DNA of 64,000 nucleotides, taken from assembly GCA_029204225.1 (NCBI GenBank), contig CM055113.1, positions 16,435,745-16,499,744 of the forward strand. Direction: 5' to 3'. The translations under genes were made by a program, and so were the position numbers. Under the pieces are notes generated by a model. The model was not told the origin of the DNA and searched no databases. It saw only the letters and a program-made list of their open reading frames with translations. Source of the stretch: Diphasiastrum complanatum. Lineage: Eukaryota; Streptophyta; Lycopodiopsida; Lycopodiales; Lycopodiaceae. Shown in pieces: positions 1 through 61,535 of this stretch (position 1 is its first letter; each line of letters opens with the position of its first letter).

Positions 1-1007
1 GCTATCCTAGTTGTGGTTGACATACTCACGAAAATGGCTCATTTTATTCCAACTAGTAATAAGATTGATGCACCTGGTATGGCTGATTTGTTTATATAGC
101 ATGTATTCAAACTTCATGGATTACCTAGATCTATTGTGTCTGATAGGGATTCTCGTTTTATTGGCAACTTTTGGATTGCAGTATTTGAGAAGTTAGAGAT
201 GCAGTTGGGAATGAGTAGTTCTAATCATCCTGAAACAGATGGGCAGACTGAGAGAGTTAACCAAACCTTGGAAGACATGCTTAGGGTGTATGTGAGTGAA
301 AGGCAAACGCAATGGGAATGTTACCTACCATTGTTGGAGTTTGTCTATAATGATAAAAAGAATGCTTCCACGAAGATGAGTCCTTTTGAGCTAAATTATG
401 GTTTTAGACCAGCCAATCCAATTACTATAGGTATGCCTCATAAGACACCTAGTGCTATGGAATTTCTAATTCACATGCAACAGATGTTGGAGTTAGCACA
501 GGAAAATGTAAAAGCAGCGATGGATCGGGCAAAGACATATGCTGATCTGGATCATACGCCAAGAGAGTTTGAGGAAGGAGATATGGCATTTCTCAGGATT
601 CCAAAGGACTCAAAAACCCTAAAGATAGGGAAGTGTTATAAGCTGTCACCTAGATACTGTGGACCTTGGAAAATTGTTATAAAGATTAATAGCGTTGTTT
701 ATGAACTGGATTTGCCTGTTGGTTGTAAGGTTCATCATGTTTTTCATGTTTCACGCTTAAAGAAGGTTTTACATGACGGTGATAACTTGTTGGCTGATGG
801 CCTTGTATTGTTTCAGGAGCATGGGGAGGTGATGCATGGACCAGCGGAGTATTGGACCGGAGGCAGAGACGGTTGCGGAATCATTTGCTCCGTGAGTACT
901 TGGTTGCATGGCATGGACGACCTCTCAGTGATGCTACCTGGGAGACCGCGCATGGGTTGCATGTACAGTAAGTATCCAGACTTTGCCATGGAGGACGATG
1001 TCATATG
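1..1007 (+). pseudogene. Ty3/gypsy integrase C-terminal half (relic)
   Basis: This is the 3' part of a Ty3/gypsy pol. It begins inside the integrase core (DILTKMAHFIPTSNKID, then SIVSDRDSRFIGNFW and HPETDGQTERVNQTLEDMLR). It continues through the integrase C-terminal domain to a chromodomain-type tail (SPRYCGPWKIV, VHHVFHVSRLKKVL). The reading frame runs from base 1 to a TGA at about 1006, broken only by a TAG at 97-99. The frame therefore continues off the left edge of the window. The core Asp of VSDRD and the region before the catalytic Glu are present. The product would insert retrotransposon cDNA, but the stop makes this copy inactive. A polypurine tract and an LTR follow immediately, so this is the natural 3' end of the element. 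Confidence 0.9.
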
Positions 1008-1020
1008 AGGAGGGAAGGGA
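1008..1020 (+). other. Polypurine tract of gypsy element
   Basis: A run of purines (AGGAGGGAAGGGA) lies directly before a TGTGACATG LTR start. This is the expected position of the plus-strand primer of a Ty3/gypsy element. Confidence 0.8.
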
Positions 1021-37923: not shown

Positions 37924-39095
37924 ATGGCTACACATAATCAGAGACCAAGAGGAACCATTGATGCAATCAATATTTGCAATGAAAAATGCAGAAGATCAAT
38001 AGATACCAAAAATATATCGAAAATATCAATGGATCTTGATGCACCCCTCTGCAAAAGGCTCATTCCAAAAAAGAAAAAAATCGGATAACATATATAGAAG
38101 CTCTTGGAAAGGCAAGATAATGGATTTCAAAGTATCACCTATCGATCAATCTATCATGGAAGTTTTAGTTCAGCATGCTTATCTTCACAATGAGCTCAAC
38201 ATTCATGAATCCAAATGATAGAAAAAAAATGCAATTGTAAGTATTTATATTTGATTTTTTTAGAGTTAGCATTTTCTTTAAATTATATTTATCTTGTGAT
38301 ATTTTTGTTGGTTTTGCAGATTTGTATCCATCAAATTTCGTTGAATGGCAAACAGTTCAATCGATTGCAAGAATACTCGATGTCATACATTCGGATATCG
38401 GTATTTTACAATATAAATGTCGTTCTCCAAAATCACTTTTAGAATCGGAAGTTTTCTTTTATAATCACACTTATTTTCCTGATAAAAATGGTTTAGTTGG
38501 TGAATTAAAGCCATATCCTCTACCATATTTTTTGAGTGAGGAATAAATTTTTCCTGATGCAGCAATTTCAAAAAGTTTTCGATCTAGGCTATATATAGAT
38601 ATTCAGAATATATTAAAATGTAGCACTGGATCAAAGAATAATAGATTAAGTTGGTATTTACATTTTACTATTTTTGTTGATTTTTTTTTCAAATGCAATG
38701 TTCGGAGAACGACAACAAAGTTCATTTGTAAGGACTTGAGTGCTAAAATAATCGCCAAATTGTTGGATGATGGTTGGGATACGAAACAAAATCAGCAAGT
38801 TGAGTGCAAAATATGTTACTCATCCATGACATTTCGATATCACATCGAAAAACAAATGCTCACTTTGCTGCTGTATTATAGATGGATTAAATGCAAAAAT
38901 GTTTGAAAGCCACTTGATCAAGATTTTAATATAAACCCTTAAGAGCAACTTCAGACAACAGTGAAAAGAAATGACAACATTCTTGCAATGGTTGAGGTCA
39001 AAAAAGATTGGTGTCTCAATCACATTCGATCAAAACTAGGCATGTTGCAATTCGATCTATCTCAATACTATCAATTTCAATTGAATGGTGTAAAG
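37924..39095 (+). pseudogene. Unrecognised mobile-type gene family 'A', copy 1
   Basis: I do not recognise this family. Four blocks are shared with copies at 44.9-46.4 and 50.6-49.0 kb. Block a (38080-38217): SSWKGKIMDFKVSPIDQSIM, then EVLVQHAYLHNELNI. Block b (38321-38546), after an intron with acceptor TTTGCAG: LYPSNFVEWQTVQSIARILD, then VIHSDIGILQY. Block c (38700-38908): KFICKDLSAKIIAKLLDDGW, then FRYHIEKQMLTLLLYYRW. Block d (38960-39095): VEVKKDWCLNHIRSKLGMLQ, ending at a GTACGT donor. Blocks are separated by stops and frameshifts. Cys pairs occur (ECKIC), but there is no clear zinc finger. A convergent Ulp1-like gene follows. The FRYHIEKQM and SxARILDVIHS motifs should be used for searches. 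Confidence 0.55.
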
Positions 39096-39577
39096 GTACG
39101 TTATGCCATACGAAAATATTTCTTTTTTTCTATTTTTAAGTGAATCAGGTTCAAAAAATATATTAACTAAAACAATTTCTGTTGTGCAAATAAGAGTAAG
39201 GCAGGAAGAGCATATAAAATGCAAAAACATTGGAACATCCATCAAAATTGAAGATGATTTGATCAAAGCTTTGTCGCAACAAATCTAAGTGAACTTATGT
39301 CGCATGTTTGGATTGGTTCTGGCAAAAGAATCGACTAGGTCATCTTTATGAACTTATCCAAAAAAAAACCATGGCAAAGGCAAGGCAGACCAAGGTTATG
39401 AAAAACAAACATGTAGAAAAACCATAGAAATTGAAGTTGAATGAATAATAACCTGAATTAATAACATGAAAGCAAACATGTAAGAACAACCATAAAAAAG
39501 TGTAAATATATTTCTATAAAAATTTTCTGTACATGTGTCTCATCCACATCAAGAGAGACCAACTTTTTATCGGTATC

Positions 39578-40340
39578 AACTTTCTATGATCTCTACATCC
39601 ATATCTCCAATTGGAAGTAGCTTGGGTGGAGAATACTCTGCCACTGCAACTGGATATCAATTTTCGATCACAAGCTTATGGTCTCCTGCCTGAAGTGCAT
39701 TATCTCCATTGGGGAGACCTTCGGACATTTAAATTGAAAAAAAACAAAAACACAGTTTAATGTTATTAATCAAAGATTAGTTATTAGGAATGTGATTATG
39801 AAAAAAAACAAAAACACAATTAAATGTTATTGATCGAAGATTATCTCTTCCAGATTAGGAAGTTCATCTTGTAGTGCAAGCCATACCGTATATCAACCAC
39901 AACTGACAGAATCAACTTGTTGGGAGGACTGTAGTATCCAATATAAACGAAAGTTAATAACAAAATTTTAACATTATGTAATATCGGATCAACGCGCAGG
40001 AGGTTATAATAAAATCTTTAACAGAAACAAGCGCGTGTCGAACCGATATTCAAAAAATATTGTTTGGATATCGGATCAGCGCACACGATATGAAAAAAAA
40101 AATCAAACAATAACTACAAGAGCACGTCGAACCGATATTTATAAATTTTTACCTCTACATCAACCATTTTCGGTTTCGTATATGCTATTGCATGTGGTAC
40201 TGGAAAGAGTTCCAGTATTTTCTGGATATGGCTCTTGGCAATTTTGTGTGTGTGTAATAGAGTTCATTTTTAAACAAACTGTATTACACACACCCTCATC
40301 ATTAAGATGTAAGGACAACACATATAAGCTCCAATGATCA
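39578..40340 (-). pseudogene. Ulp1-like (C48) cysteine protease, copy 1
   Basis: SUMO/ubiquitin-like protease fragment. The exon from 40340 to about 40157 has the catalytic His in DHWSLYVLSLHLND. The usual Asp position reads LKMNS (Asn). After a frameshift KIAKSHIQKILELF continues, ending at GAG^GTAAAA. The next exon (39928-39846) carries the active-site block SSQQVDSVSCG, a stop, then YTVWLALQDELPNLEE; the Gln and Cys are kept. An acidic tail (LPIGDMDVEIIES) ends near 39578. Intron positions match copy 2. The intron between the two catalytic exons contains motif array I. The upstream exon is missing, and LTR sequence of another element lies there. Such proteases are common cargo of plant DNA transposons. 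Confidence 0.6.
39981..40139. repeat. Motif array I: four alternating ~20-bp repeats
   Basis: ATATCGGATCAACGCGC (plus, 39981), GCGCGTGTCGAACCGATATT (minus, 40031), GATATCGGATCAGCGCAC (plus, 40067) and GCACGTCGAACCGATATTT (minus, 40122). Starts are spaced 50, 36 and 55 bp apart. It lies inside an intron of the Ulp1-like copy 1; the corresponding intron of copy 2 lacks it. Confidence 0.8.
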
Positions 40341-40449
40341 CTGCAATTAGAAAACGATATCATCATGCAGACTTTTGAAATCAGGGAAATCAGAAGCAGC
40401 CATGAATTGCAGAGGAAACAATGCTACATCTATAAACAGTGGGGTTTGG

Positions 40450-40915
40450 AAAAATTCCATCCAGTACTAAATTGCCCCCCTCTTACATTGTCCCCTAGTA
40501 TTTTATCCTTACTTTCTAATTCACATGTATCTAATTTAGAAAGGGGAAGACCGGCATTTGTCTTCGGCATCTTAAAATTGTATTTTATACATACGTGTCT
40601 CGAATATGTGAATTTAGGGCTACCTATGATCCATCCATGACTTAACCCTAGTTTCTAACCTAATAAGTCATAAGATCCACCCTGATTGGGGGGCGAGACC
40701 TTGAGATCCAAAAACAATGTAAAAATTGCTTTAGCTCCTAAAAAATCTCTAGCCTATCTATGCACATTTAGGTCTCATTTCCAAATGTGCCATTCCAAAC
40801 CTAGGTTAGGAATATATGAAAAATATCCTATGCTTTTTGGCACGTGTGACATCCCACAACATGGCCACATTACAATTTACAAGTGGTAGAACCAAACTAG
40901 TTTGTGTAAATTTAA
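40450..40915 (-). repeat. Copia LTR remnant of CP5 type
   Basis: GGCACGTGTGACATCCCACA, then TAGTTTGTGTAAATTTAAC, at 40838-40915 match the LTR start beside the Copia at 49460-50040. The opposite edge is not defined. It lies where the upstream exon of the Ulp1-like copy 1 would be expected. Confidence 0.55.
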
Positions 40916-41039: not shown

Positions 41040-41442
41040 AGTTGGATATTGGTCAAGATGTCTTAAGCAAGCAAGATCTTGAACCTTTTGATCAATTTGG
41101 GTACTTATCTCATTCATGCTTATATTTTTTTCTACTAATGTAACTAATCAAAACTATTGTTTGCAGCTTATCCTTCTTCATCATGCAACTTATTTTGCAA
41201 AGGAATATGGGAGCTTAAGTATCTGGTCATCACAAGGCATAGAAAAATCTCATTGGCAAGCAAGGGGAGCATTTCATAGAGCTACAAATCATGGAGGACA
41301 CAATTCAAGAAATAGATATTTAGTTCAACTTATTCAATGGTTTTATAGAAGAGCACAATTTAGATATCAAGCTAAAAACTCGCCAAATGTTACGATTTTT
41401 CGAAAGGCATCCAAATTCATAACAATAGAGATATCCTTGTAA
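41040..41442 (+). pseudogene. ORF with SxQGIEKSH motif, putative transposase C-terminus
   Basis: A short exon (about 41040-41098, LDIGQDVLSKQDLEPFDQFG) and a spliced second exon (41167-41442, acceptor TTTGCAG) give LLHHATYFAKEYGSLSIWSS, then QGIEKSHWQARGAFHRATNH and SRNRYLVQLIQWFYRRAQFR. The mixture of conserved-looking aromatic, His and Arg residues with an isolated Glu resembles the final catalytic-Glu region of DDE transposases, but this is inference. I do not know the family. It lies between the Ulp1-like copy 1 and the acidic-protein gene, and may be the 3' part of family A's transcript, displaced by insertions. Confidence 0.45.
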
Positions 41443-41449
41443 TATATCA

Positions 41450-42393
41450 AAAAATTATTTTGAAAGTTTTTCAAATAATGAGATAGAGACACATCCTTCT
41501 CCCGGCTGATACACCGCAAATGCCTCCATGTCTCATACCAAAGTTGGGGGATATTTTTTTTAAAATTCCAAAAATTCATCCTCTGTAAACAAAGTTTTTT
41601 CATAAGTTTTAGATTTTTCAATCATGGCCTCCAAGGCCTCATTGCCAAATTTTCAATTGCCATCTTGATCATAATCTATCTCACTTTCAAGATCATCATA
41701 TGTGTAATCAACAATGTCAAAAAATTCTAACAAATTTTGTGCAAAAATCGAAAGGATTTCATCCTCTCTAAAATTCAACACATCTTCTATATCATTAAAT
41801 AAAATATAGCTCTCATTACTTATAAAATATAAGGGAACATCGAGTAGAGTTAATTGATTAACAGGAGATGCAGATGGAAGAGAATCAGAGAGGATTATAG
41901 AATGAGAGAGAGTTTTCTGATAATCTGAAGCCATAGATGCTTCAGCTTCAACTTCTATATCAGTATCTGCATCATCTACATCAACTGGAGCAGATGCAGA
42001 TGCATCGATCAATGGAACAGTAGAAGATTCATCATCTGCAATTTCAACAGATATGTAAAAGAGCCATTCCTTTGATTAGAAGGCGACATATTCTTTTGTG
42101 GATACTACACTATATATTTCTTTTGAAATGGTCATGCAGGTTAGAGTACTTTCTATTGTGTTTATGCTTAGATGATGGTTGGGAATGCACAAGGTCCTGA
42201 AAATGAACGAAACAAAAACTATCTATATTTAGAACAGGAGTACTAATAATCTGAGGAAACTCATCAAGAAGAGAAATTAAATTATAACGATTCTCATAAA
42301 CTAGCTTATCGATATCGAAGGGAGCAAAAAAAATAATGGAATGTCACTGGCATTCAAAAAAATCCAGAAGTTTGTTATCTGAGGACATGGAGG
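41450..42393 (-). pseudogene. Acidic protein gene, unrecognised
   Basis: Minus strand, from about 42393 leftward. The readable middle part (42012-41653) is strongly acidic: VDVDDADTDIEVEAEASMAS, LFNDIEDVLNFREDEILS and VDYTYDDLESEIDYDQDG. Further in-frame-like text continues leftward (KFGNEALEAMIEKSKTYE, then TEDEFLEF and DMEAFAVYQPGEG) to about 41490 through stops. The N-terminal part (FDIDKLVYENRYNLISLLDE) may end at a splice donor. The composition suggests a histone-binding, chaperone-like or activation region, an inference that gains some weight from the divergent histone-like gene 1 kb away. No domain is recognised. Confidence 0.35.
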
Positions 42394-42412
42394 AACTAGC
42401 CATATTGAACCT

Positions 42413-42573
42413 GATATCGGTTCAACGCGACAGAATGATTTTGGTCGAGGACTGAACAACAGTGCATGCGTTGATCCGATATCGTTTTGACGAGAGAGAC
42501 TGATATCGATTCAGCGCGCCTGAATGAATCCGACCGTGCATCGTATGTGAAGGCGCGCGTCGATTCGATATCG
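42413..42573. repeat. Motif array II: four alternating ~20-bp repeats
   Basis: GATATCGGTTCAACGCGAC (plus, 42413), GCATGCGTTGATCCGATATCG (minus, 42464; 20-bp core), GATATCGATTCAGCGCGCC (plus, 42502) and GCGCGTCGATTCGATATCG (minus, about 42555). Spacing is close to array I (about 51, 38 and 52 bp), although the spacers do not align. It begins about 20 bp upstream of the acidic-protein gene. Confidence 0.85.
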
Positions 42574-43238
42574 TGAGAAAGAAAGAAAACAAAATGATGA
42601 GGGAGTTCAAAATAAAAGATCACGGAATTAAAATATGGAAAGTGGTGCCCATATTTATAGCATATTCCTGTTGATTACAGCCATACATTTGTCAAATAAT
42701 GAATTGAGGAGCGCAATTTATATTTATCCACCAATCAGAGTGAGACAAATTTGTACCTATGCCGAAATACATTAAAATACGTTAAATAGTCTATCACTAG
42801 CCTCACCGAATCATTATTAAACAAACATTAAATGGACATAATTGAAAAGTGTACGAGGACAATTATTACAGTCTCTCGCCCTATTTAAGCACCGTAAAGA
42901 CGAAATTTTTTCTTTTGAGATATTGTTCATTCAGAACATTTTCATAAGGCATAACCTTGTCAATTTCAGAAATAAATTGTAGATGTGACCATACATTTGT
43001 AGAATTAATTGTAGATGTGACCATACTTTTGTGCCATATCGACTAATTATTTTGATAAAGGATGAATATTTAATTGACAACAAGCCTCTGAATATCTCAA
43101 AGTAATTATCAGCGTAATCCGAGCCTCGGAATTCCAAACCACCACGTATGCAATCATTTTGGATTTGAACTATATATACAGATGGACGACGCTTAAATTT
43201 TTTTGCTTAAAGTTCTTATAATTTTCTACTTCCATGCA

Positions 43239-43405
43239 GTATCGATTCAGCACGCCCGAAGCAACCTACCTACATTCCGCTTTTACTCGCGTGCGTCCAT
43301 CCGCTCTCAAGTATATGTTTGGTCTAAGTTCAGGTATCGGTTCGACGCACTCGACCTGACTTTTGATCCCGAGTTCTCCTTTTTTGCGCGCTGATCTGAT
43401 ATTGG
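43239..43405. repeat. Motif array III: same ~20-bp repeats
   Basis: AGTATCGATTCAGCACGCCC (plus, 43239), a decayed minus unit near 43288, GGTATCGGTTCGACGCACTC (plus, 43333) and GCGCGCTGATCTGATATTGG (minus, 43386). It ends 7 bp before the start codon of the histone H3-like gene. Confidence 0.75.
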
Positions 43406-43411
43406 ATAGTA

Positions 43412-43866
43412 ATGGTGCGGACTAAGCAAACAACACGAATTCACCCTGGTGGAATACCAATCACAGGAGAGGGTCAGGAAAATGCACCACCACCTCCTAG
43501 GTCAAGGGACAGACGAAGAGACCCTCCCTGGCTGAAGGATATTCTGAAGCTACAGAAGACCAATAATCTTCTGGTTTCAAAAGCTTACATACAGAGATCC
43601 ATCAGACATGTTACAAGAAGTCTATCTGCAGATGTGAGATGGACTGTAATGGCAATTGAGGCGCTGCACACTACATATGAGGATTTCTAAGTGAATTTTT
43701 TTTTTCAGATGCTGTTGTTGCAGCTGTCCATGCCAAGAAGGTGACTACAATGCCCAAGGATTTCATTATTGTGTTTAGGCTACATGACACATATGACAAA
43801 TTTGCAGAGTACTTTAGACCAGCTCCTTCCTCTCCTCCAAAACAAGATGCAGAGAAAAGAAAATGA
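43412..43866 (+). pseudogene. Histone H3-like protein with H3 N-terminal tail, broken
   Basis: The N-terminus MVRTKQTTRIHPGG parallels H3's MARTKQTARKSTGG. A Pro-rich non-H3 linker follows (QENAPPPPRSRDRRRDP), then a histone fold. DILKLQKTNNLLVSKAYIQR aligns with H3 [20 protein letters not shown], and DVRWTVMAIEALHTTYEDF with the alpha-2 region. The frame is broken by a TAA at 43688-43690 and by a length change in the T10 run at 43696-43705. Past it, AAVHAKKVTTMPKDF matches H3 CAIHAKRVTIMPKDI. A non-H3 tail (FAEYFRPAPSSPPKQDAEKR) ends at 43866. Lys4-type and Arg2-type tail positions are kept; Lys9 is replaced. It is far more divergent than a canonical H3. Array III lies immediately upstream. 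Confidence 0.75.
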
Positions 43867-44578
43867 AAGCAATCTCAACCATCCCGGCTTGTTTTTCAAG
43901 TACAGAGCGGTAGTGTTTAAAAAAAGAGGAGATCTCATGACCCTCCTAATAAAGTGCGAGATTTTTCAAAGCCATCTCCTCTGCATGAGATTCTATCTGC
44001 TAGACAATCTCCTTCTCCTTCAAAATCTCAGTCTCCTCCTACCCTTACAAATATTAGTTTCCCATCTAGAAAATGATTTAGATGATTTTGTAAATGTAAA
44101 GGTAGAATCAATTTTGAATGACAATTCTTTTAGTGGTTTATCTATATTACTTCTTTCACCCCCTTTGTAAATACTCCTCAATATGTACAGTATGACCAAT
44201 TGTTAAACCCATATCTTAAAATTTTAAATCCTTTATGTGATGGATTTGCCATCCAATTATGAGTAAATTTGAGATCTTCCTTCATGAATAGTTTTGCTCT
44301 ACAATTTGCTGGATGATTGCTATTGGCATTTGGTTTTTTGTAATGATTAGAAGGATTGGAGGGTGCTGGTACAATACACAAGATTGAGCAGGCCGTACAT
44401 CCACACGTGTGAAGCATTTTGCATGATTTTGGAGCCATAAAGTGGAGTTCAAGCCAAGATAAACTAGAAATCAATAGATTGTTTTGTGCTCTAGCAATTG
44501 GATCATGATTGAATCTTAATTAGGTGCTTTCTCCATCATTCTAGGATTTATTGGACTTATTTTGCTGCATTTTCAACA
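43867..44578 (+). other. Possible H3-like tail remnants and LTR-like sequence
   Basis: In a frame different from the longest ORF, text such as SPLHEILSARQSPSPSKSQS and PPTLTNISFPS continues past 43866. It may be a longer, decayed C-terminal extension of the H3-like protein or part of the next gene. The right part ends at a primer-binding-site match (44579-44591), so an unrelated Copia LTR may be inserted here. Confidence 0.3.
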
Positions 44579-44862: not shown

Positions 44863-46383
44863 ATGTCTTCGGGTTCTGATTCAGAAATAGAATTAGCTTT
44901 TCCTCCTCCTGTTACTCGTCAACCTCCTCATAAGATTTTTTCGTCGAAGGTGGAGAAAACCCAAGAGGAGCTTGACAAGATAATAGAAAAATCTGTAAAT
45001 ATTGTCTCAGCATCCGTTTTAAACCTTGTACATAACTTTTTTGTTAGAATCTCATATGATCCTCGGCAGATTTATTTTGATTGACATTATATGAATATGA
45101 ATCTTATTTAGCCAATAAAATTGATATGTTCGGCAACTATTTTGTCTTTTTTCTTCTAGATTCAAATATAAGCTATGGATTAGGTCCCAAATTTTGTACA
45201 GAGCTTAAAGATAAAACTTTAGATATTACATATACGATTGTAGAAACCGGCCAAAAATTTTTGCAGCACAATATCAATGTCAATTCTATAGGAAACATTT
45301 TTGTGGTTAGTCCATGGGGGCAATGAAGACAAAAGATGCCACTTTTAAAAGGGCTGTATATTTCATCGATTGTAGTCCAATGAAAAAAATTTATTTGTTT
45401 AGTTCAAGACTACTCTTGGAGGTCACCCTATATCAGAAGTTCTAGTACTAGATGTTTATATGCATTCAAAAATAAAAGTACAAGATATCAATCCTCATGA
45501 TCATCTGAAATGTAATTGTAAGTATATCAAAATGTATGCACTCTACTACAATCATAGGTGTTTTTTTATTGATGCTCTTCAGATTACGATTTAAATTATT
45601 CAACGTTTTTTTTCTTTCAGATTTATATCCATCAAACATAAGTGAATTGGAGCCAACACAATCACTTGCAAGAATATTGGATGTGATTCACTCTAATGTT
45701 GAAAAGCTGCAATACAGAGAGGAAGAACTCCAAAGGAACTTGCAGTTAGTGGTATATATTTTTATGAATCTTCATATATACCACAAACGGATGGAGGTTT
45801 CGGCAAGCCAATTCCATAATGGCCTACTCCTGACATTATTGTTTTTGAATCGTTTAGATGCAAGCTACTCATCGATGTTAGAAATGCCATGAAGATAAGT
45901 TTGGGTTCGAAAATTGTTCACCTAAGTTGATTTATCTCATTGCATATATTTGTTGATTTTTTCTCAAGTGCAAGTGTTTGAAAGACACCAACTTTATTTG
46001 TTTGCAAGGATTTATCAGATAAGACTTTGTCAGATGTCATGGATCAAGGCTGAGATAGTAAAACAAATAATGATATAGAATGCATGATAAAAAAAAAGTC
46101 GTCAATCATCTTCCGTTATCATATCGAAAAACAAATGCTCAATCTCACATTAAGCTATCAGAGATACAAAAAAACTGACGGTACATGGCTACCACTAGTC
46201 AAGACTTCAAACTAAATGGTCACACAAACCGAAAGGAAATAAGCATCATACACAATGAAGAATTGTTGACTATGGTTGAGGTGGAATAGCATTGGATGCT
46301 TGATTTTATCATAGCAGAGTTCATGCTATTACAAACCAATCTACCGACTTATTTCAGATTCATCATCAACAGAAGACTTGTAA
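44863..46383 (+). pseudogene. Unrecognised gene family 'A', copy 2
   Basis: Parallels copy 1 block by block. An N-terminal part (44863-45326) is seen only here: SGSDSEIELAFPPPV and ISYGLGPKFCTELKDKTLDI. Block a (45400-45516) reads TTLGGHPISEVLVLDVYMHS, KIKVQDINPHD. The intron has donor AATT^GTAAGT. Block b (45622-45730) reads LYPSNISELEPTQSLARILD, VIHSNVEKLQY. Block c (45970-46190) reads LFVCKDLSDKTLSDVMDQG, FRYHIEKQMLNLTLSYQRYK. Block d (46263-46383) reads LDFIIAEFMLLQTNLPTYFR, FIINRRL, then a GTAAGT donor. Frameshifts and stops interrupt it. The H3-like gene lies upstream in the same orientation and a Ulp1-like gene converges from downstream. Confidence 0.55.
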
Positions 46384-46745
46384 GTACTCTATGTTTATTG
46401 CCATTTCAAAATAGTAAAAACTAAAGGAAAATGACATAATCGCAATGGCACGCTAAGATTTGTCTTGTCACATATGCGAAAAAGACAGGAGCTGGTAACG
46501 TGCTGCAAAGACAACAATCACCATTGTGGAAAAACAATAGTTTCAAATAAAGTTCAGTAAAATCTGTGTATAGACAAGTCCTTCAATAAATGAAAGCCCA
46601 AGTTGGGCATCAGTACATGTATTTTGGGCTCTCAAATTCAGTAAAATGGAACTGCATTTGATATATAAATGTATATTTTCCTATCAATTCTATACATTTT
46701 CAATCTATATATGTTTTGTGCTATCTATATTTTTCTAGTCTTTAT

Positions 46746-47762
46746 TTAGTATAATAACATCATCTGAAGTACCATCATCAATAGGAGTGGCTGCAGCCTT
46801 GTCCTCGCCAATATGCTCAGGATCATTTCTTGTCTAAATCTGTACATCTGGGCTGATGTGTATTCAGGAAGTGTAAACTGCAAGATACAATATTCACATA
46901 TTAGCTACAATTAGAAAATTTACAAAATAGAAAAAATAATCACCATTCCAAAACCAAAAATAAACAAAATAAATTACCCTTGAAATATGATGAACCACTC
47001 AAAAAATAACTTTGCATTATAGAAAGTGTACCACCCACAGCTGAATGAATCATTTTGCTAGGGTGACTGCAAAAAGTTCAGCACACAAGACATCAATGAA
47101 GGGAAACCAAACAATGAATAGAATACATTAGAATGTTGATTTCAAAATGTTGATGAGAAGCACATAGTTTACCTCCAGCAGACTGACGATTCACCATTCA
47201 ATTGTTTGGGGATTCTCTGCCGGAATATATTTACATATAATCGCAAAGATTTAGTCAATATCCTTATGCGTGTTCCTAGCCGAATTCATCTTTACACAAA
47301 AATGTTTAATTAAATTATCTAAAAATCTCCTTATAGAGATCGGGTTTAAACTCCAATGCTCACTGCAAAATAAAATAGAGAGTCCATTAGCTGCAATTTT
47401 GAGAAATATTTCCAATGATGAAGCTATAAACAACAAGAAGCATTTAAATTGTCTTACTTGGTATGATAAGGCACAAGCAAGTATTTTGTAACTGGTGTGC
47501 ATTCACTAAACATACACTATGACAAGGTGTTGTTGTCTCCTTAATTGCCTGAAAGAAAAAAATTGCTTAGCACCAAAATTTTTCTGCATGAATCCCTTGC
47601 AATGTCAAATTGCAAGAGTGTGACCCCAGACTCTAACACATGATCAGTGATAGAAGCCCGTCTGTTTTTCAGATCCAAGCAATCAATAATCCTATAATTT
47701 ATACTGAAATGAAGTTTCTCTAATCTAAAACAAAATGGAACTCCAATTCTATCTAACAACAT
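46746..47762 (-). pseudogene. Ulp1-like (C48) cysteine protease, copy 2
   Basis: Exons on the minus strand: about 47762-47560 (LEKLHFSINYRIIDCLDLKN, then ESGVTLLQFDIARDS), 47546-47458, 47362-47173, 47066-46978 and 46877 to about 46746. Splicing joins VTKYLLVPYHT with NEHWSL exactly in frame (ACCAA^GTAAG, CAG^TGAGCATTGG), which gives the catalytic His-Trp. The Asp position is again Asn (VKMNS). The active-site exon reads SP, a stop, then QNDSFSCGWYTFYNAKLFFE, keeping Gln/Cys-type SCG. The last exon reads FTLPEYTSAQMYRFRQEM and, after a shift, an acidic end (PIDDGTSDDVIILNKD). In-frame stops at three places make it a pseudogene. Intron positions match copy 1. Confidence 0.65.
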
Positions 47763-48230
47763 CTAATATGTCACTCTCAAATTTAAGATACTCATTCGAA
47801 TCTATATATGTATAAAAATTTGTACGAAGAGGAGGAGGTTTTTCAAAACAAAACAAAGTACTTATCTGTTATTATATTATATACTCTGTACCATCAATCC
47901 ATTGATTTTGCTTTTTTTGTATGATTCAAAATTAGAGATGGCGCTCATATTTTCATTCCAATGTGACAATGGTGCTCATATTTGGAGATGGCGCTCATAT
48001 TTTCATTCTACTGGAAGGAATGTATATTCATACATTTTTCTTTTTTCTCTAATTCGAATTTGGGGATGGAGGTCATATTCTAGATCCAACGAGAAGATTG
48101 CCCTCTTCGTAGCCAATAGAGGGAATGTATTTTTGAATTTAGACAAGTTAGACTGTGAACGATTTAGAGTTGTTAACTGTGACTTTAGACACTATGGTTA
48201 GATCATTGGGAGTTGGGGAGGCCTCGGGAT
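47763..48230. other. Unassigned stretch with short repeated phrase
   Basis: GAGATGGCGCTCATATTTTC and related wording recur at about 47933, 47970 and (as GGATGGAGGTCATATTCTAG) 48062, a degenerate ~40-90 bp repeat. No gene recognised. Confidence 0.4.
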
Positions 48231-49003: not shown

Positions 49004-50576
49004 TCAGTTGGATAGTTTCGCCAACATCTCTGCATTTGATCTCGAGCGCCTATCTTTTATGTACCTGCATAAATTTAACACATAGCATGTTACATTTAGT
49101 ATAAAGATTATACGAGAAATTTTTGAAAGAAACTCTTTATAAAGAATAGAGTGTTTACAGTTACTTACGAGTTTACCATTGGAAATGAATCTGAAGTCTG
49201 ATGGTATATCATCTTGTAGGAGCAACAGTTCCTGCCTAATGTAATTTAGGCTCCAATCTTCTTCCACGTCACCACATCTCAAAAGTGTATCATTGTATAT
49301 TTTTTCGTTTAGAATGTCCACGTTGCATTCCAAATCTAGGTTAATAATTTGACTTAGAATAAGGTATTTTATGCTTTTGGCACGTGTGACATCCCACATC
49401 ATGGCCTCAAAGCCATTTAGAAGTGGAATTTATGCAAACTAGCTTGTGTAAATTTAACACTCCTCCTCACAACTGGTTTGAAGATAACATAGACTTGCTT
49501 ATCAACCCTAGGGATGATCTTAACTTCACAAATGCAGCTCTTTGAAGTGGTTTAGTGATGATGTCAGCAACACATTCACTACTTGCCACATGCTCCAAAG
49601 ATATTTTCTTAGATTGCATCTTTTCTCTCACAAAATGATGAGAGATCTCAATATGTTTTGACCTTGCATGTAAGATTGGATTGGTTGCAAGGTGTTGGGA
49701 TGAAATGTTGTCATTGTAGAGAGTTGATGTGGCCAAGTCTCTTATGTCATAGAACATGGTTGGATAGCTTGGCCTCCTCGGCTAGCATCACAACATTAGC
49801 ATCCACATAGGCATCTAGCTTGAACAATCTTCCAAACCTTATGCCTCTAGCAATGATCTTGCGACCCTTTTTATGTTACATGCATTTGTGGTGAACTCCA
49901 CAATAAAACTATTGCCAAAGCAATTGTCCTACACTAAGCAAATTCTTAGTGATACTAGGAATGTAAAGTACTCCATCAATCTTGATCTTCCTTGAAGATC
50001 CCAAGCATAAAGGTATTGGACAGTTCTACCTCTATATTACAACTGTCCAATATTAGTGTGTACTATATCTAACAGACCTGCAAGAGATCCACTTGGCTCC
50101 CATTAGATGGATATAAATCTGCAAGAGAAAAATGATCAGATTGGCAAGTTTAGTAATAGATGATAATGAATGACAAAAATCAAAGTATTGTAATATATCA
50201 ATACTCACTGTTGTTTTTTTTGTGATCCTGACAGTTGAATCCTTGCACATTTATCTCTGAATGCATATATACATGTTGGACTAAAATTTCGATAATAGAT
50301 TTTTCTCCTGATGATGTTCTGAAATCCAAAATTCTGGCCTTCCAATAAGATCAAAATGATAGTTTTGTCTCTTTGCTTTTTTAAAATGTTCCTTTTAATG
50401 ATGGATGCATCAGAGCCCAAGAGTTTTTTGAATGTTTTCTTATCCATTGTCATCTTTCTCATTGAAGAGAAGCACAAAGTCGATTGAGGAGCACAACTTC
50501 CTTGACGGCGCCATTTGTTATGTGCAGGCAAAAATTTGAAACACTGAACTTTGAATCTAAAGATATGTGTAGACAA
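49004..50576 (-). pseudogene. Unrecognised gene family 'A', copy 3, split by Copia
   Basis: Minus strand. Block a (about 50350-50215) in its conserved frame reads SYWKARILDFRTSSGEKSII, then EILVQHVYMHSEINVQ. After an intron with acceptor CTTGCAG, block b (about 50122-50041) reads LYPSN and, one frameshift later, SLAGLLDIVHTNIGQL. Block c is absent. Block d (about 49290-49170) reads VEEDWSLNYIRQELLLLQDD, IPSDFRFISNGKL, ending at a splice-like GTAAGT. A truncated Copia (CP5) occupies the gap between blocks b and d, about 49370-50040. The upstream frame (50576-50400) includes KKTFKKLLGSDASIIKRNIL, so this copy may hold more of the N-terminal region. Confidence 0.5.
49370..50040 (-). pseudogene. 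Copia protease fused to RNase H tail (CP5)
   Basis: Minus strand: DGVLYIPSITKNLLSVGQLL (GAG-pre-integrase/protease end, about 49995-49935) and FGRLFKLDAYVDANVVM run directly into the RNase H C-terminus: NPILHARSKHIEISHHFVRE and ECVADIITKPLQRAAFVKLR. A polypurine tract (GTGAGGAGGAG) and LTR start (TGTTAAATTTACACAAG, about 49457) follow. Integrase, RT and most of RNase H are absent. The LTR is cut off at about 49370, where family A copy 3 resumes. Confidence 0.85.
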
Positions 50577-54904: not shown

Positions 54905-55073
<169 letters not shown>

Positions 55074-57899: not shown

Positions 57900-58190
57900 T
57901 CATTCTTCAAGAATGAAGCAAACACCATGCTTAAAGTGGACATCCAAACCACTTTCTAAGAGTAGACCAACACTAAGCATATTCTTGGTGATTGATGGTA
58001 CATAAAGGACATTTTCTAGATCCATGCATTTTGAGGATTCTAGACACAAAGAGATGGTGCCAACACCATCTATCCTACACTCTTCATCATTTGCAGTAAA
58101 GACAAACTTTTTAGCAGCATTGAAAGAGTGTAAGGTTGAGAAAAAGTCCTTTCGCCAAGACATGTGGGAGCTAGCCCCACTGTCGATCCA
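57900..58190 (-). pseudogene. CP6 aspartic protease
   Basis: Protease of Copia type. The active site WIDSGASSHMS is encoded at about 58190-58158 (Asp-Ser-Gly-Ala codons at 58184-58173). VFTANDEECRIDGVGTISLC and LYVPSITKNMLSVGLLLESG follow, the usual flap and C-terminal blocks. It lies +1 relative to gag, so gag-pol expression would need a frameshift, or the frame is mutated. No integrase follows. Confidence 0.8.
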
Positions 58191-59130
58191 CCAATTTGTC
58201 TCTTGAATTGCTATTGCTTGTTGGTGAGGATGTAGATGCCATCAAGAATACATCTACTTCACCCTCCTCCTCCTCCTTTGCAAGGTTTCCTTGTTTGTCC
58301 TCCTCCACTTGTGCTCTTATCCTCTTGTAGCATTCAGATGCATAATGCCCCTTCTTTCCACAAAAGAAGCATTTTTGCTTTGACTTGTCCTTTGAGCTTG
58401 ATGCATCATCCTCTTCTTTGGCCTCCTTTGGATGCTTCTTCTTTCCATTGGTCTTCTTTTTGCCCTTGAATGAAAAATTGGCTTTCTCATCTCCGTCCTG
58501 CAAAGACAAGGAACTCATCCTAGATTTTGCATGGAGCATCCTACACTCTTCAGCCACTAATACACTGTGAAGTTTTTCTATAGTTGGCAAAGTGTCTTGG
58601 ATGGCAAAACTTTGGACCAAATTTGCAAAGTCATCTCCTAGACCATTAAGAACAATTTGTACAAGCTCTCCATCATGAATCTTCTCTCCAATGGAAGCCA
58701 ACTCCCTATTTAGAGACTTGATTCTGAGTACATAATCCTGTGCACTCTCCTCGCTTCTCTTCATGCTTTGCAAAATCTGATTTCTAAGCATAAGAACTCT
58801 AGAAGTGTTGCTAGACTCATAGATTGATTTTAAAGACTCCCAAGCCTCTTTAGCACTAGTACAAGCTAATACTTCTCTCAACAAATCATTGCTCACATTC
58901 ATCTTTACACAATGAAGTGCAAGTCTAGATCTCTTCTTGTATCTAGCTAACTCCTGTGCACCTAGAGGTTCATCTTCATCTTCAATCAAGAACTCATAAA
59001 GGTCTTGGAGCACCAAGAGTGACTCCATCCTAACCTTCCAAATAGTATAATTTGTAGAATTCAACCTCTCACTAGCTTCTAGAAGGTATGCTCTAGCAGA
59101 TCCCATCTTACTAGTGACTTCTACAAACAA
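58171..59130 (-). CDS. CP6 gag polyprotein, intact
   Basis: 319 codons, open throughout, about 770 bp after the primer-binding site. The N-terminal DUF4219/UBN2-type region is clear: RLNSTNYTIWKVRMESLLVL near residue 23, SAKEAWESLKSIYESSNTSR near 92, and VLNGLGDDFANLVQSFA near 160. A Lys-rich segment (GKKKTNGKKKHPKEAKEEDD) precedes one CCHC zinc knuckle, CFFCGKKGHYASEC, at about residue 254, with spacing C-x2-C-x4-H-x4-C. Gag forms the retrotransposon's cytoplasmic particle and binds its RNA. The frame ends in the protease active-site region, where protease is read in another frame. Gag has stayed open while pol was deleted. Confidence 0.9.
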   Translation of the reverse strand: MFVEVTSKMGSARAYLLEASERLNSTNYTIWKVRMESLLVLQDLYEFLIEDEDEPLGAQELARYKKRSRLALHCVKMNVSNDLLREVLACTSAKEAWESLKSIYESSNTSRVLMLRNQILQSMKRSEESAQDYVLRIKSLNRELASIGEKIHDGELVQIVLNGLGDDFANLVQSFAIQDTLPTIEKLHSVLVAEECRMLHAKSRMSSLSLQDGDEKANFSFKGKKKTNGKKKHPKEAKEEDDASSSKDKSKQKCFFCGKKGHYASECYKRIRAQVEEDKQGNLAKEEEEGEVDVFLMASTSSPTSNSNSRDKLVDRQWG

Positions 59131-60725: not shown

Positions 60726-61535
60726 ATGGCATCCACGTATCCGCCTTTCCTTTCTTCTCGACCCCTTCTTCGTCTTGCCTCTTCTTCACCTCTCTCCTCC
60801 TTGATGTCTTCCATTTCTCGCAGCAATCCCTCCTTCCAATCTTTCCAAACTGTAGCTGGATTACAGCACCATAAGCATCTGCCATTTGTCTCACACAATT
60901 ATGTAGCATTCGTTGAACTGTTTGGCAAAGAGTTGTGCTTGCTGCAGCAACAGCAGCCCAGATTTTTGTTTGAATTGCTGCTGGGGAAGGCAACAAGATC
61001 AGGCGTGCATCGGTGCTTGTGTGCTGCTTCTAGGAGGATGGCAACAGCAGAGAGGGAAAAGGTAGGAGCTGGGCAGGAATCTGTGTGGGATTACCCCCGT
61101 CCCCCAAGGCTTGAGCCTGTTGCTGAGCGCATTCGCATAGTTTTTAACTCTCTCACCATTGCGGACACCACAAAGGCGTATCGTGTTTTGGAGACCAGCC
61201 ACCCTCCTGTTTATTACATTCCTCCAGCAGATATCAATCTAAGCTTTCTGAAAAAAGCAGGTGGAAGTTCTTTCTGTGAGTGGAAAGGCAACGCAACTTA
61301 CTGGACTTTATCCGTCAACGGCAAGACAGCTGAGAAAGTAGGCTGGAGCTATGAAAATCCCACAGCTGGGTTCTTGGCCATCAAAGGATACATAGCATTC
61401 TATGCAGGGCCGATGGATGTTTGCTTTGTTGGTGATGAGAAAGTAGAACCGCAGCCTGGTGGGTTTTATGGTGGGTGGATCACCTCCAGAGTTGTGGGGC
61501 CTTTCAAAGGGGTTCCTGGTTCATGGGGTTGGTAG
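60726..61535 (+). CDS. DUF427 (NTP_transf_9-like) domain protein, plastid-type N-terminus
   Basis: 269 codons, one open exon. Residues 1-~105 are rich in Ser, Leu, Pro and Arg with few acids, consistent with an organelle transit peptide; a second Met (MATAEREK, residue 104) starts the conserved part. The DUF427 domain then runs ESVWDYPRPPRLEPVAERIR, ADTTKAYRVLETSHPPVYYI, SSFCEWKGNATYWTLSVNGK and GWSYENPTAGFLAIKGYIAF, and ends GGWITSRVVGPFKGVPGSWG-W. That ending is typical of the family, so the gene looks complete. The Cys-Glu-Trp-Lys block and the Asp/His-Pro positions are kept. The biochemical role of DUF427 proteins is not known to me. It begins about 190 bp beyond the CP6 insertion, so CP6 sits in its promoter region. 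Confidence 0.92.
   Translation: MASTYPPFLSSRPLLRLASSSPLSSLMSSISRSNPSFQSFQTVAGLQHHKHLPFVSHNYVAFVELFGKELCLLQQQQPRFLFELLLGKATRSGVHRCLCAASRRMATAEREKVGAGQESVWDYPRPPRLEPVAERIRIVFNSLTIADTTKAYRVLETSHPPVYYIPPADINLSFLKKAGGSSFCEWKGNATYWTLSVNGKTAEKVGWSYENPTAGFLAIKGYIAFYAGPMDVCFVGDEKVEPQPGGFYGGWITSRVVGPFKGVPGSWGW

Follow-up and report, generated by a model that had tools for sequence, protein, structure and literature searches.

A histone H3-like gene as a standing component of terminal-inverted-repeat DNA transposons in a plant genome

Silencing of plant transposons works through the histone marks H3K9me2 and H3K27me1, and transposons counter silencing with DNA-binding proteins. For example, VANC, encoded by VANDAL21, is a plant transposon anti-silencing protein that binds DNA sequence-specifically. 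Other parasitic elements carry histones: bracoviruses encode an H4, and the Marseilleviridae encode histones. Among DNA transposons with terminal inverted repeats (TIRs), those of the CACTA/CMC type serve here for comparison.

The element described here resembles each of these systems in part. Like the histone-encoding viruses, it is a parasitic element with its own histone; here, however, the histone is an H3 and its carrier a plant DNA transposon. Like VANDAL21, it combines motif arrays with an accessory gene proposed to act against host silencing, although VANC is a sequence-specific DNA-binding protein and not a histone. The ends of one family, F1 (CATTAGGG...CCCTAATG), resemble CACTA ends, and the transposase-like protein shows D-D-E-like motifs in which a C-x2-C and an H separate the second D from the E; in contrast to CACTA/CMC transposons, it matches neither Transposase_21 nor any other Pfam family, and the accessory genes are unlike TnpA. 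With core histone H3 (PF00125; host H3) the element proteins share a fold scoring above the Pfam cut-off, loop 2 (HAKRVTIMPKD in FW, the family of the gene reported below), the tip ARTKQT (F1, F3, and FW), and a loop 1 with no insertion except for one residue in F2. They differ from it in lying on multi-copy transposons, in their fold identity to host H3 (38-57%), in the loss of K9, and in a Pro-rich linker and, in FW and F2, a long C-terminal extension. A limited literature search, by title or the start of the abstract, returned no transposon-encoded H3.

The window (the whole stretch of DNA analysed, 64,000 nt) lies on contig C22 of a 1.74-Gb genome assembled in 5,176 contigs. An initial annotation had placed at 43412..43866 a gene with an H3-type tail and histone-fold blocks, broken by one stop and one homopolymer length change and set among repeated mobile-type genes. 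All of this was borne out. The ATG at 43412 opens an H3-like reading frame with the tip MVRTKQTTR (MVRTKQTTRIHPGG at the start), and a Pro-rich linker joins the tip to the H3 fold. The frame is broken by an in-frame TAA (43688-43690) and shifted by a run of ten T (43696-43705), with AAVHAKKVTTMPKDF and what follows in another frame; this second piece runs to EKRK and then to a TGA (43864-43866). The Pfam histone model (PF00125; cut-off 26.4 bits), which the annotation had proposed running on both frames, matches the first piece alone at 35.2 bits (1.6e-8) and the two pieces joined by X at 56.7 bits (3.8e-15); the second piece alone scores 12.8 bits, below the cut-off. The annotation's own counter-case, a stretch with no significant histone match, is thereby set aside.

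The start of the annotated gene stands, but its end probably does not. In two relatives of the same family (L030 and L032) the gene reads through into a C-terminal extension, and a third (L031) stays in the same frame past its own nearby stop; the TGA at 43864-43866 therefore looks like a lesion rather than the true gene end. The extension of the window gene continues up to 44232 and then reappears, inverted, at 40609-40201. Relative to L030-L032, the window copy carries in inverted orientation the half comprising the end of the H3 gene together with the BAH-like and ubiquitin-like genes. The window copy is a dead, rearranged relic. Its parts are as follows.

43412..43690 (+): H3-like gene, first piece, with the tip MVRTKQTTRIHPGG, Pro-rich linker, and first part of the fold, ending in TAA (ORF reading, Pfam).
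43691..43866 (+): H3-like gene, second piece past the ten-T run, AAVHAKKVTTMPKDF to EKRK, with TGA 43864-43866 (ORF reading, Pfam, relatives L030-L032).
43867..44232 (+): start of the H3-like C-terminal extension, one gene with it in L030-L032 (homology to element proteins).
40201..40609 (-): remaining C-terminal extension and a stretch with the motif DHW....KMNS, inverted and displaced relative to L030-L032.
43240..43401 (unstranded): two inverted pairs of TATCGGTTCGACGC-like sites forming an array, spacing 53 bp; 10 bp lie between its end and the ATG of H3.
42415..42570 (unstranded): TATCGGTTCGACGC-like array directly 5' of the REDE gene.
39982..40137 (unstranded): TATCGGTTCGACGC-like array directly 3' of the DHW stretch.
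41179..41439 (+): transposase-like gene, final part (SSQGIEKSH; presumed E of D-D-E).
41734..42403 (-): 'REDE' gene, with the block LYFI.NESYI.FNDIEDVLN.REDEIL, divergent to the H3-like gene; no assigned function.
37961..38209 (+): BAH-like gene, exon 1 (P8).
38316..38636 (+): BAH-like gene, exon 2 (P7).
38772..39098 (+): piece of a ubiquitin-like/PB1-like gene (weak).
45403..47817 (+): second element piece, F2-related, with BAH-like and ubiquitin-like exons (+) and, on the opposite strand (-), the C-terminal portion of its H3-like protein; the histone fold was not matched here.
49163..50428 (-): third element piece, with ubiquitin-like and BAH-like exons.

The window also holds a Copia-type gag ORF (58171-59130, minus strand; Retrotran_gag_2, DUF4219, and zinc knuckle; 319 aa, open); an ORF at 136-1008 (plus strand) that matches Tf2-1-like SH3 / integrase C-terminal and is probably a fragment of a Ty3-type retrotransposon; an ORF at 60726-61535 (plus strand) matching DUF427 (NTP_transf_9; 2.4e-34), perhaps a host gene; and long CA, then GA dinucleotide tracts at 54906-55071.

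The sites of the arrays are 14 bp long and inverted; their 53-bp spacing corresponds to about five helical turns, and two of the arrays flank an element gene at its 5' end. A motif array had been annotated 7 bp before the H3-like gene: the array is real, but 10 bp separate its last site, ending at 43401, from the ATG. The window contains six inverted pairs of TATCGGTTCGACGC-like sites (at most four substitutions), spaced at 53-55 bp and grouped in three blocks; 20 mononucleotide shuffles of the window contained none. An earlier repeat scan of 42900-43415 did not reveal the array. L030, L031, and L032 contain four, three, and three such pairs, mostly at matching places; the array directly precedes H3 in L030 and L031 but not in L032, which has no pair there. 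Such pairs are absent from ten loci of the other families (three of F1, five of F2, and one each of F3 and F4). The array is a putative binding array for an element-coded regulator.

How common are such genes? The Pfam Histone profile, run over the same genome (6,325 first-look candidates, 150 scored), gave 153 matches. Among those listed, 13 score 163.7-165 bits, as canonical H3, and the others 82.8-109.5 bits; eight of the 13 top-scoring loci (L001-L008) all have the canonical tail. The 20 divergent loci fetched (L009-L028) all fall, by DNA cross-homology, into four repeat families: F1 (11 loci), F2 (5), F3 (2), and F4 (2). FW, comprising the window copy and L030-L032, is a fifth, making at least five repeat families with H3-like genes in this genome. 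The window protein found 152 matches from 6,583 candidates (150 scored); those listed are 71-81% identical, and some are free of stops. Counted as near matches rather than intact genes, 36-mers from the fold (at most three mismatches) occur at 300 places for FW, 194 for F1, and 357 for F2, and their reversed controls at none. An open frame is found in one of the 11 F1 loci (L010; 412 aa, from MARTKQTAR through the fold end, RRERN).

These genes sit among other genes of the element. Searching the loci with element proteins (tblastn) revealed a gene order common to F1, F2, and FW: transposase-like, REDE, H3-like, ubiquitin-like, BAH-like. The REDE-H3 block has one orientation in F1 and the opposite one in F2 and FW; the F3 and F4 loci show parts of the shared order.

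The ends of F1 are formed by a perfect 35-bp TIR, TTAGGGCCC... The 35-mer, with at most one mismatch, marks 1,204 ends in the genome (control, none), and of 20 ends read, 18 are preceded by the dinucleotide CA and two by TA. In L033, 8.1 kb separate one F1 repeat from the other. The distance between H3 and TIR was evaluated for the 24 listed F1 H3 places (0-1 mismatch) that lie within the stretch spanned by 100 listed exact TIR places. Eleven of these 24 have a TIR within 10 kb, compared with a mean of 0.16 and a maximum of 2 for random places (2,000 trials). Ten of the 11 are in the right orientation, and the eleventh (C3:934088) is the wrong way round. In nine of the ten, which possibly include some segmental duplicates, the TIR on the transposase side lies at 5,324-5,412 bp; one of the nine also has a TIR on the other side (2,717 bp). 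One F1 H3 place has a TIR on the non-transposase side only (3,207 bp). The place of H3 within the F1 element is thus fixed. Five copies were read across both flanks for a target site duplication (TSD), and a 3-mer matched in one of them, L034: compared with an empty site in L025, AAT fits a 3-bp TSD, and L035 nearly fits. No 3-bp TSD was matched in L012, L016, or L033, and a search of the window copy for an F1-type TIR found none.

Taken together, the repeat families, the shared gene order, and the F1 TIRs at a fixed distance from H3 mark the H3 gene as a regular component of TIR DNA transposons and not a host retrocopy. The annotation's proposal is thus borne out in part. That a transposon here has its own H3-variant gene is supported by related copies that number in the hundreds, some with no stop across the matched stretch, and that are tied to element genes; that the protein marks or packages the element's chromatin would be a further step.

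Two F1-ended sequences, L034 and L035, are about 1 kb long, combine the F1 terminal repeats with internal inverted repeats, and are probably non-autonomous; 12 element-protein queries (a set without the histone fold) gave no match in either.

The partner proteins are less readily named. Four transposase-like motifs are kept (KLDE; [GA]DLK...C-x2-C; VHxxTxHxExR; QGMEKSH), in a D-D-E-like pattern. A motif scan found all four in L022 and L032 and fewer elsewhere; the F1 KLDE was taken from the printed translation, beyond that scan. Pfam matched no family in the transposase-like pieces, Transposase_21 (Tnp2) included, and a scan of viral contigs returned no viral relatives. The BAH-like protein (P8+P7) has no Pfam match either. 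Its BAH identity is convincing by eye, and hhalign places it in the expected register, but with a probability of 0.3% and an E value of 0.17 the alignment is not significant. A Ulp1/C48 protease was considered for the C-terminal extension, as suggested by the DHW motif, but not substantiated: N stands in place of D, Pfam gives no match, and no DCG occurs in the frames printed.

The histone fold itself has a history of constraint. In comparisons between families, pS in the fold is 0.67-1.03 and pN is 0.22-0.47. Synonymous sites are saturated while the fold remains 31-67% identical, so long-term selection has evidently kept the H3 fold. Residues H113, K115, R116, V117, T118, and D123 (H3 numbering) are present in all ten element rows of the fold alignment. 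In 24 copies of FW (20 chosen by DNA 36-mer, four by earlier steps), variation at codon positions 1, 2, and 3 of the fold is 0.096, 0.080, and 0.094; the sampled copies decay neutrally, with no selection seen in them. Within-family dN/dS values (0.34, 0.23, and 0.43) were set aside, these copies having been chosen by protein score or open frame. That the H3-like gene is transposon-encoded and has been kept by selection can be stated with high confidence.

The amino-terminal tip was sought with a scan that demanded R or Q at position 2, K4, Q5, T6, and R8 and left position 9 free; conservation of the demanded letters is not an independent result, and only the presence of a tip and the residue at position 9 are. 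A tip was found in 11 of 11 loci of F1, four of five of F2, one of two of F3, neither of two of F4, and all four of FW; the scan missed L018 of F2 (KRT for KQT) and the F3 tip of L021. By family, a K4-Q-T-x-R8 tip occurs in F1, F2, F3, and FW, four of five, and a sixth tip type shows it as well. The tip is mostly MARTKQTARDP in F1 (with Q2 in L011, M3 in L009 and L026, and G9 in L015), MARTKQTAREP in F3, M(A/V)RTKQT(A/T)R(I/V/G)H in FW, MDRRKQTRRDF in F2, and (A/G)RAKQT(T/S)R(A/T) in the sixth type, seen in L013 and L021. A-R-T-K-Q-T is therefore present in F1, F3 (L013), and FW, partial in F2 and the sixth type, and not found in the two F4 loci. An in-frame ATG lies upstream of the tip in F1 and F3 (MSEEMARTKQ, MTRHKHMARTKQ), so in these families the protein may begin upstream of the tip.

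None of the tips read, from four families and the sixth type, has K9. Position 9 is D in F1 (once G), E in F3, D in F2, and A or T in the sixth type. Across the 24 FW rows, this position holds I ten times, V seven times, G six times, and S once, but never K; position 4 is K in 18 of these rows, and several of the other six are misaligned at the 5' end, and so at position 9 too. Host H3 has lysines before the fold at positions 4, 9, 14, 18, 23, 27, 36, and 37. F2 and FW have lysine 4 only, the K27 and K36 sites being absent. F1 has only lysine 4 within its first 51 residues, with more from residue 94 in its long linker, and ARKS was not found in the F1 tail and linker read. F3 has lysines 4 and 14 within its first 45 residues, although its tip and fold are not in a single open frame.

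These features suggest how the protein might serve the transposon. The element H3 would pair with host H4 or otherwise pose as H3 at the element, offering K4 but no K9; in F1, F2, and FW, K4 is the sole lysine near the tip. Chromatin that contains this protein would be unable to carry the silencing marks H3K9me2 and H3K27me1, and the element might stay transcribed long enough for transposition. Such anti-silencing fits because K4 is present and K9/K27-type residues are absent; it is put forward tentatively, as somewhat less than an even bet. The best explanation as a whole, a standing H3 gene of TIR transposons posing as H3 against silencing, comes nearer to even chances without reaching them. 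More speculative is a full chromatin kit, in which DNA transposons would build silencing-proof chromatin on themselves by encoding an H3 that keeps K4 and is unmethylatable at K9/K27, alongside a ubiquitin-like protein and perhaps a BAH reader; the BAH-like gene would fit such a kit, but its BAH match is not significant.

The protein might instead mimic H3 without entering nucleosomes: its fold would be a dimer or a module binding H4 or a chaperone, and the transposase or the element would draw in host readers or writers of H3K4 through K4 of the exposed tip. The H3-type tip in families with completely different linkers is in keeping with mimicry, as are the long, Pro-rich linker of F1 and the large C-terminal extension of FW and F2. 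Mimicry explains the tip equally well but is a poorer account of loop 2, since all ten element rows retain both loop 2 and the H3-H3' residues, which a pure mimic would not need. It is rather unlikely, if a serious candidate.

Three further accounts concern the origin of the gene. It could be a captured CENH3, an alternative already raised in the initial annotation, used for seeding or hitchhiking on centromeres; its fold is divergent, and FW has W after R in loop 1 (DVRWT), as do the CENP-A/CENH3 rows. Yet loop 1 is of H3 length in FW, F1, F3, and F4 and one residue longer in F2, versus two in CENP-A/CENH3, and the FW tip is ARTKQT. In three PDB searches, the 60 top-ranking matches listed for each were all H3 or H3 variants, with no CENP-A among them. 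Nor does the tree, whose deep forks are weak and whose Arabidopsis row is provisional, join the element H3 to CENH3. A CENH3 origin is thus very unlikely. (The 27 protein relatives of the H3-like protein all have a Pfam histone domain; the best is 36% identical over 32% of the query, and coverage is at most 33%.) A host H3 captured at random (Pack-type) and amplified by hitchhiking would agree with the present neutral decay of the sampled FW copies, but not with the same gene neighbourhood in diverged families, nor with conserved nonsynonymous sites where synonymous ones are saturated; as a passenger, the gene is hardly credible. Finally, the broken state of the window copy recalls a plain host-H3 pseudogene in repeat-rich DNA. 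Hundreds of copies tied to element genes speak against this, and equally against a plain retrocopy of host H3 or CENH3 with no repeated copies, as does the 38-42% fold identity of L030 and L032 to host H3; the chance of such a pseudogene is close to nil.

A standing H3 gene of TIR transposons has a practical consequence: 'Histone' matches in genomes of this kind are not safely read as host genes. If the anti-silencing reading is true, a selected histone among the genes of a transposon would be a different weapon from the DNA-binding proteins with which transposons counter silencing, one aimed at the substrate of silencing itself. Moreover, this natural series, with K4 kept and K9 gone, would allow a direct test of which H3 residues silence transposons.
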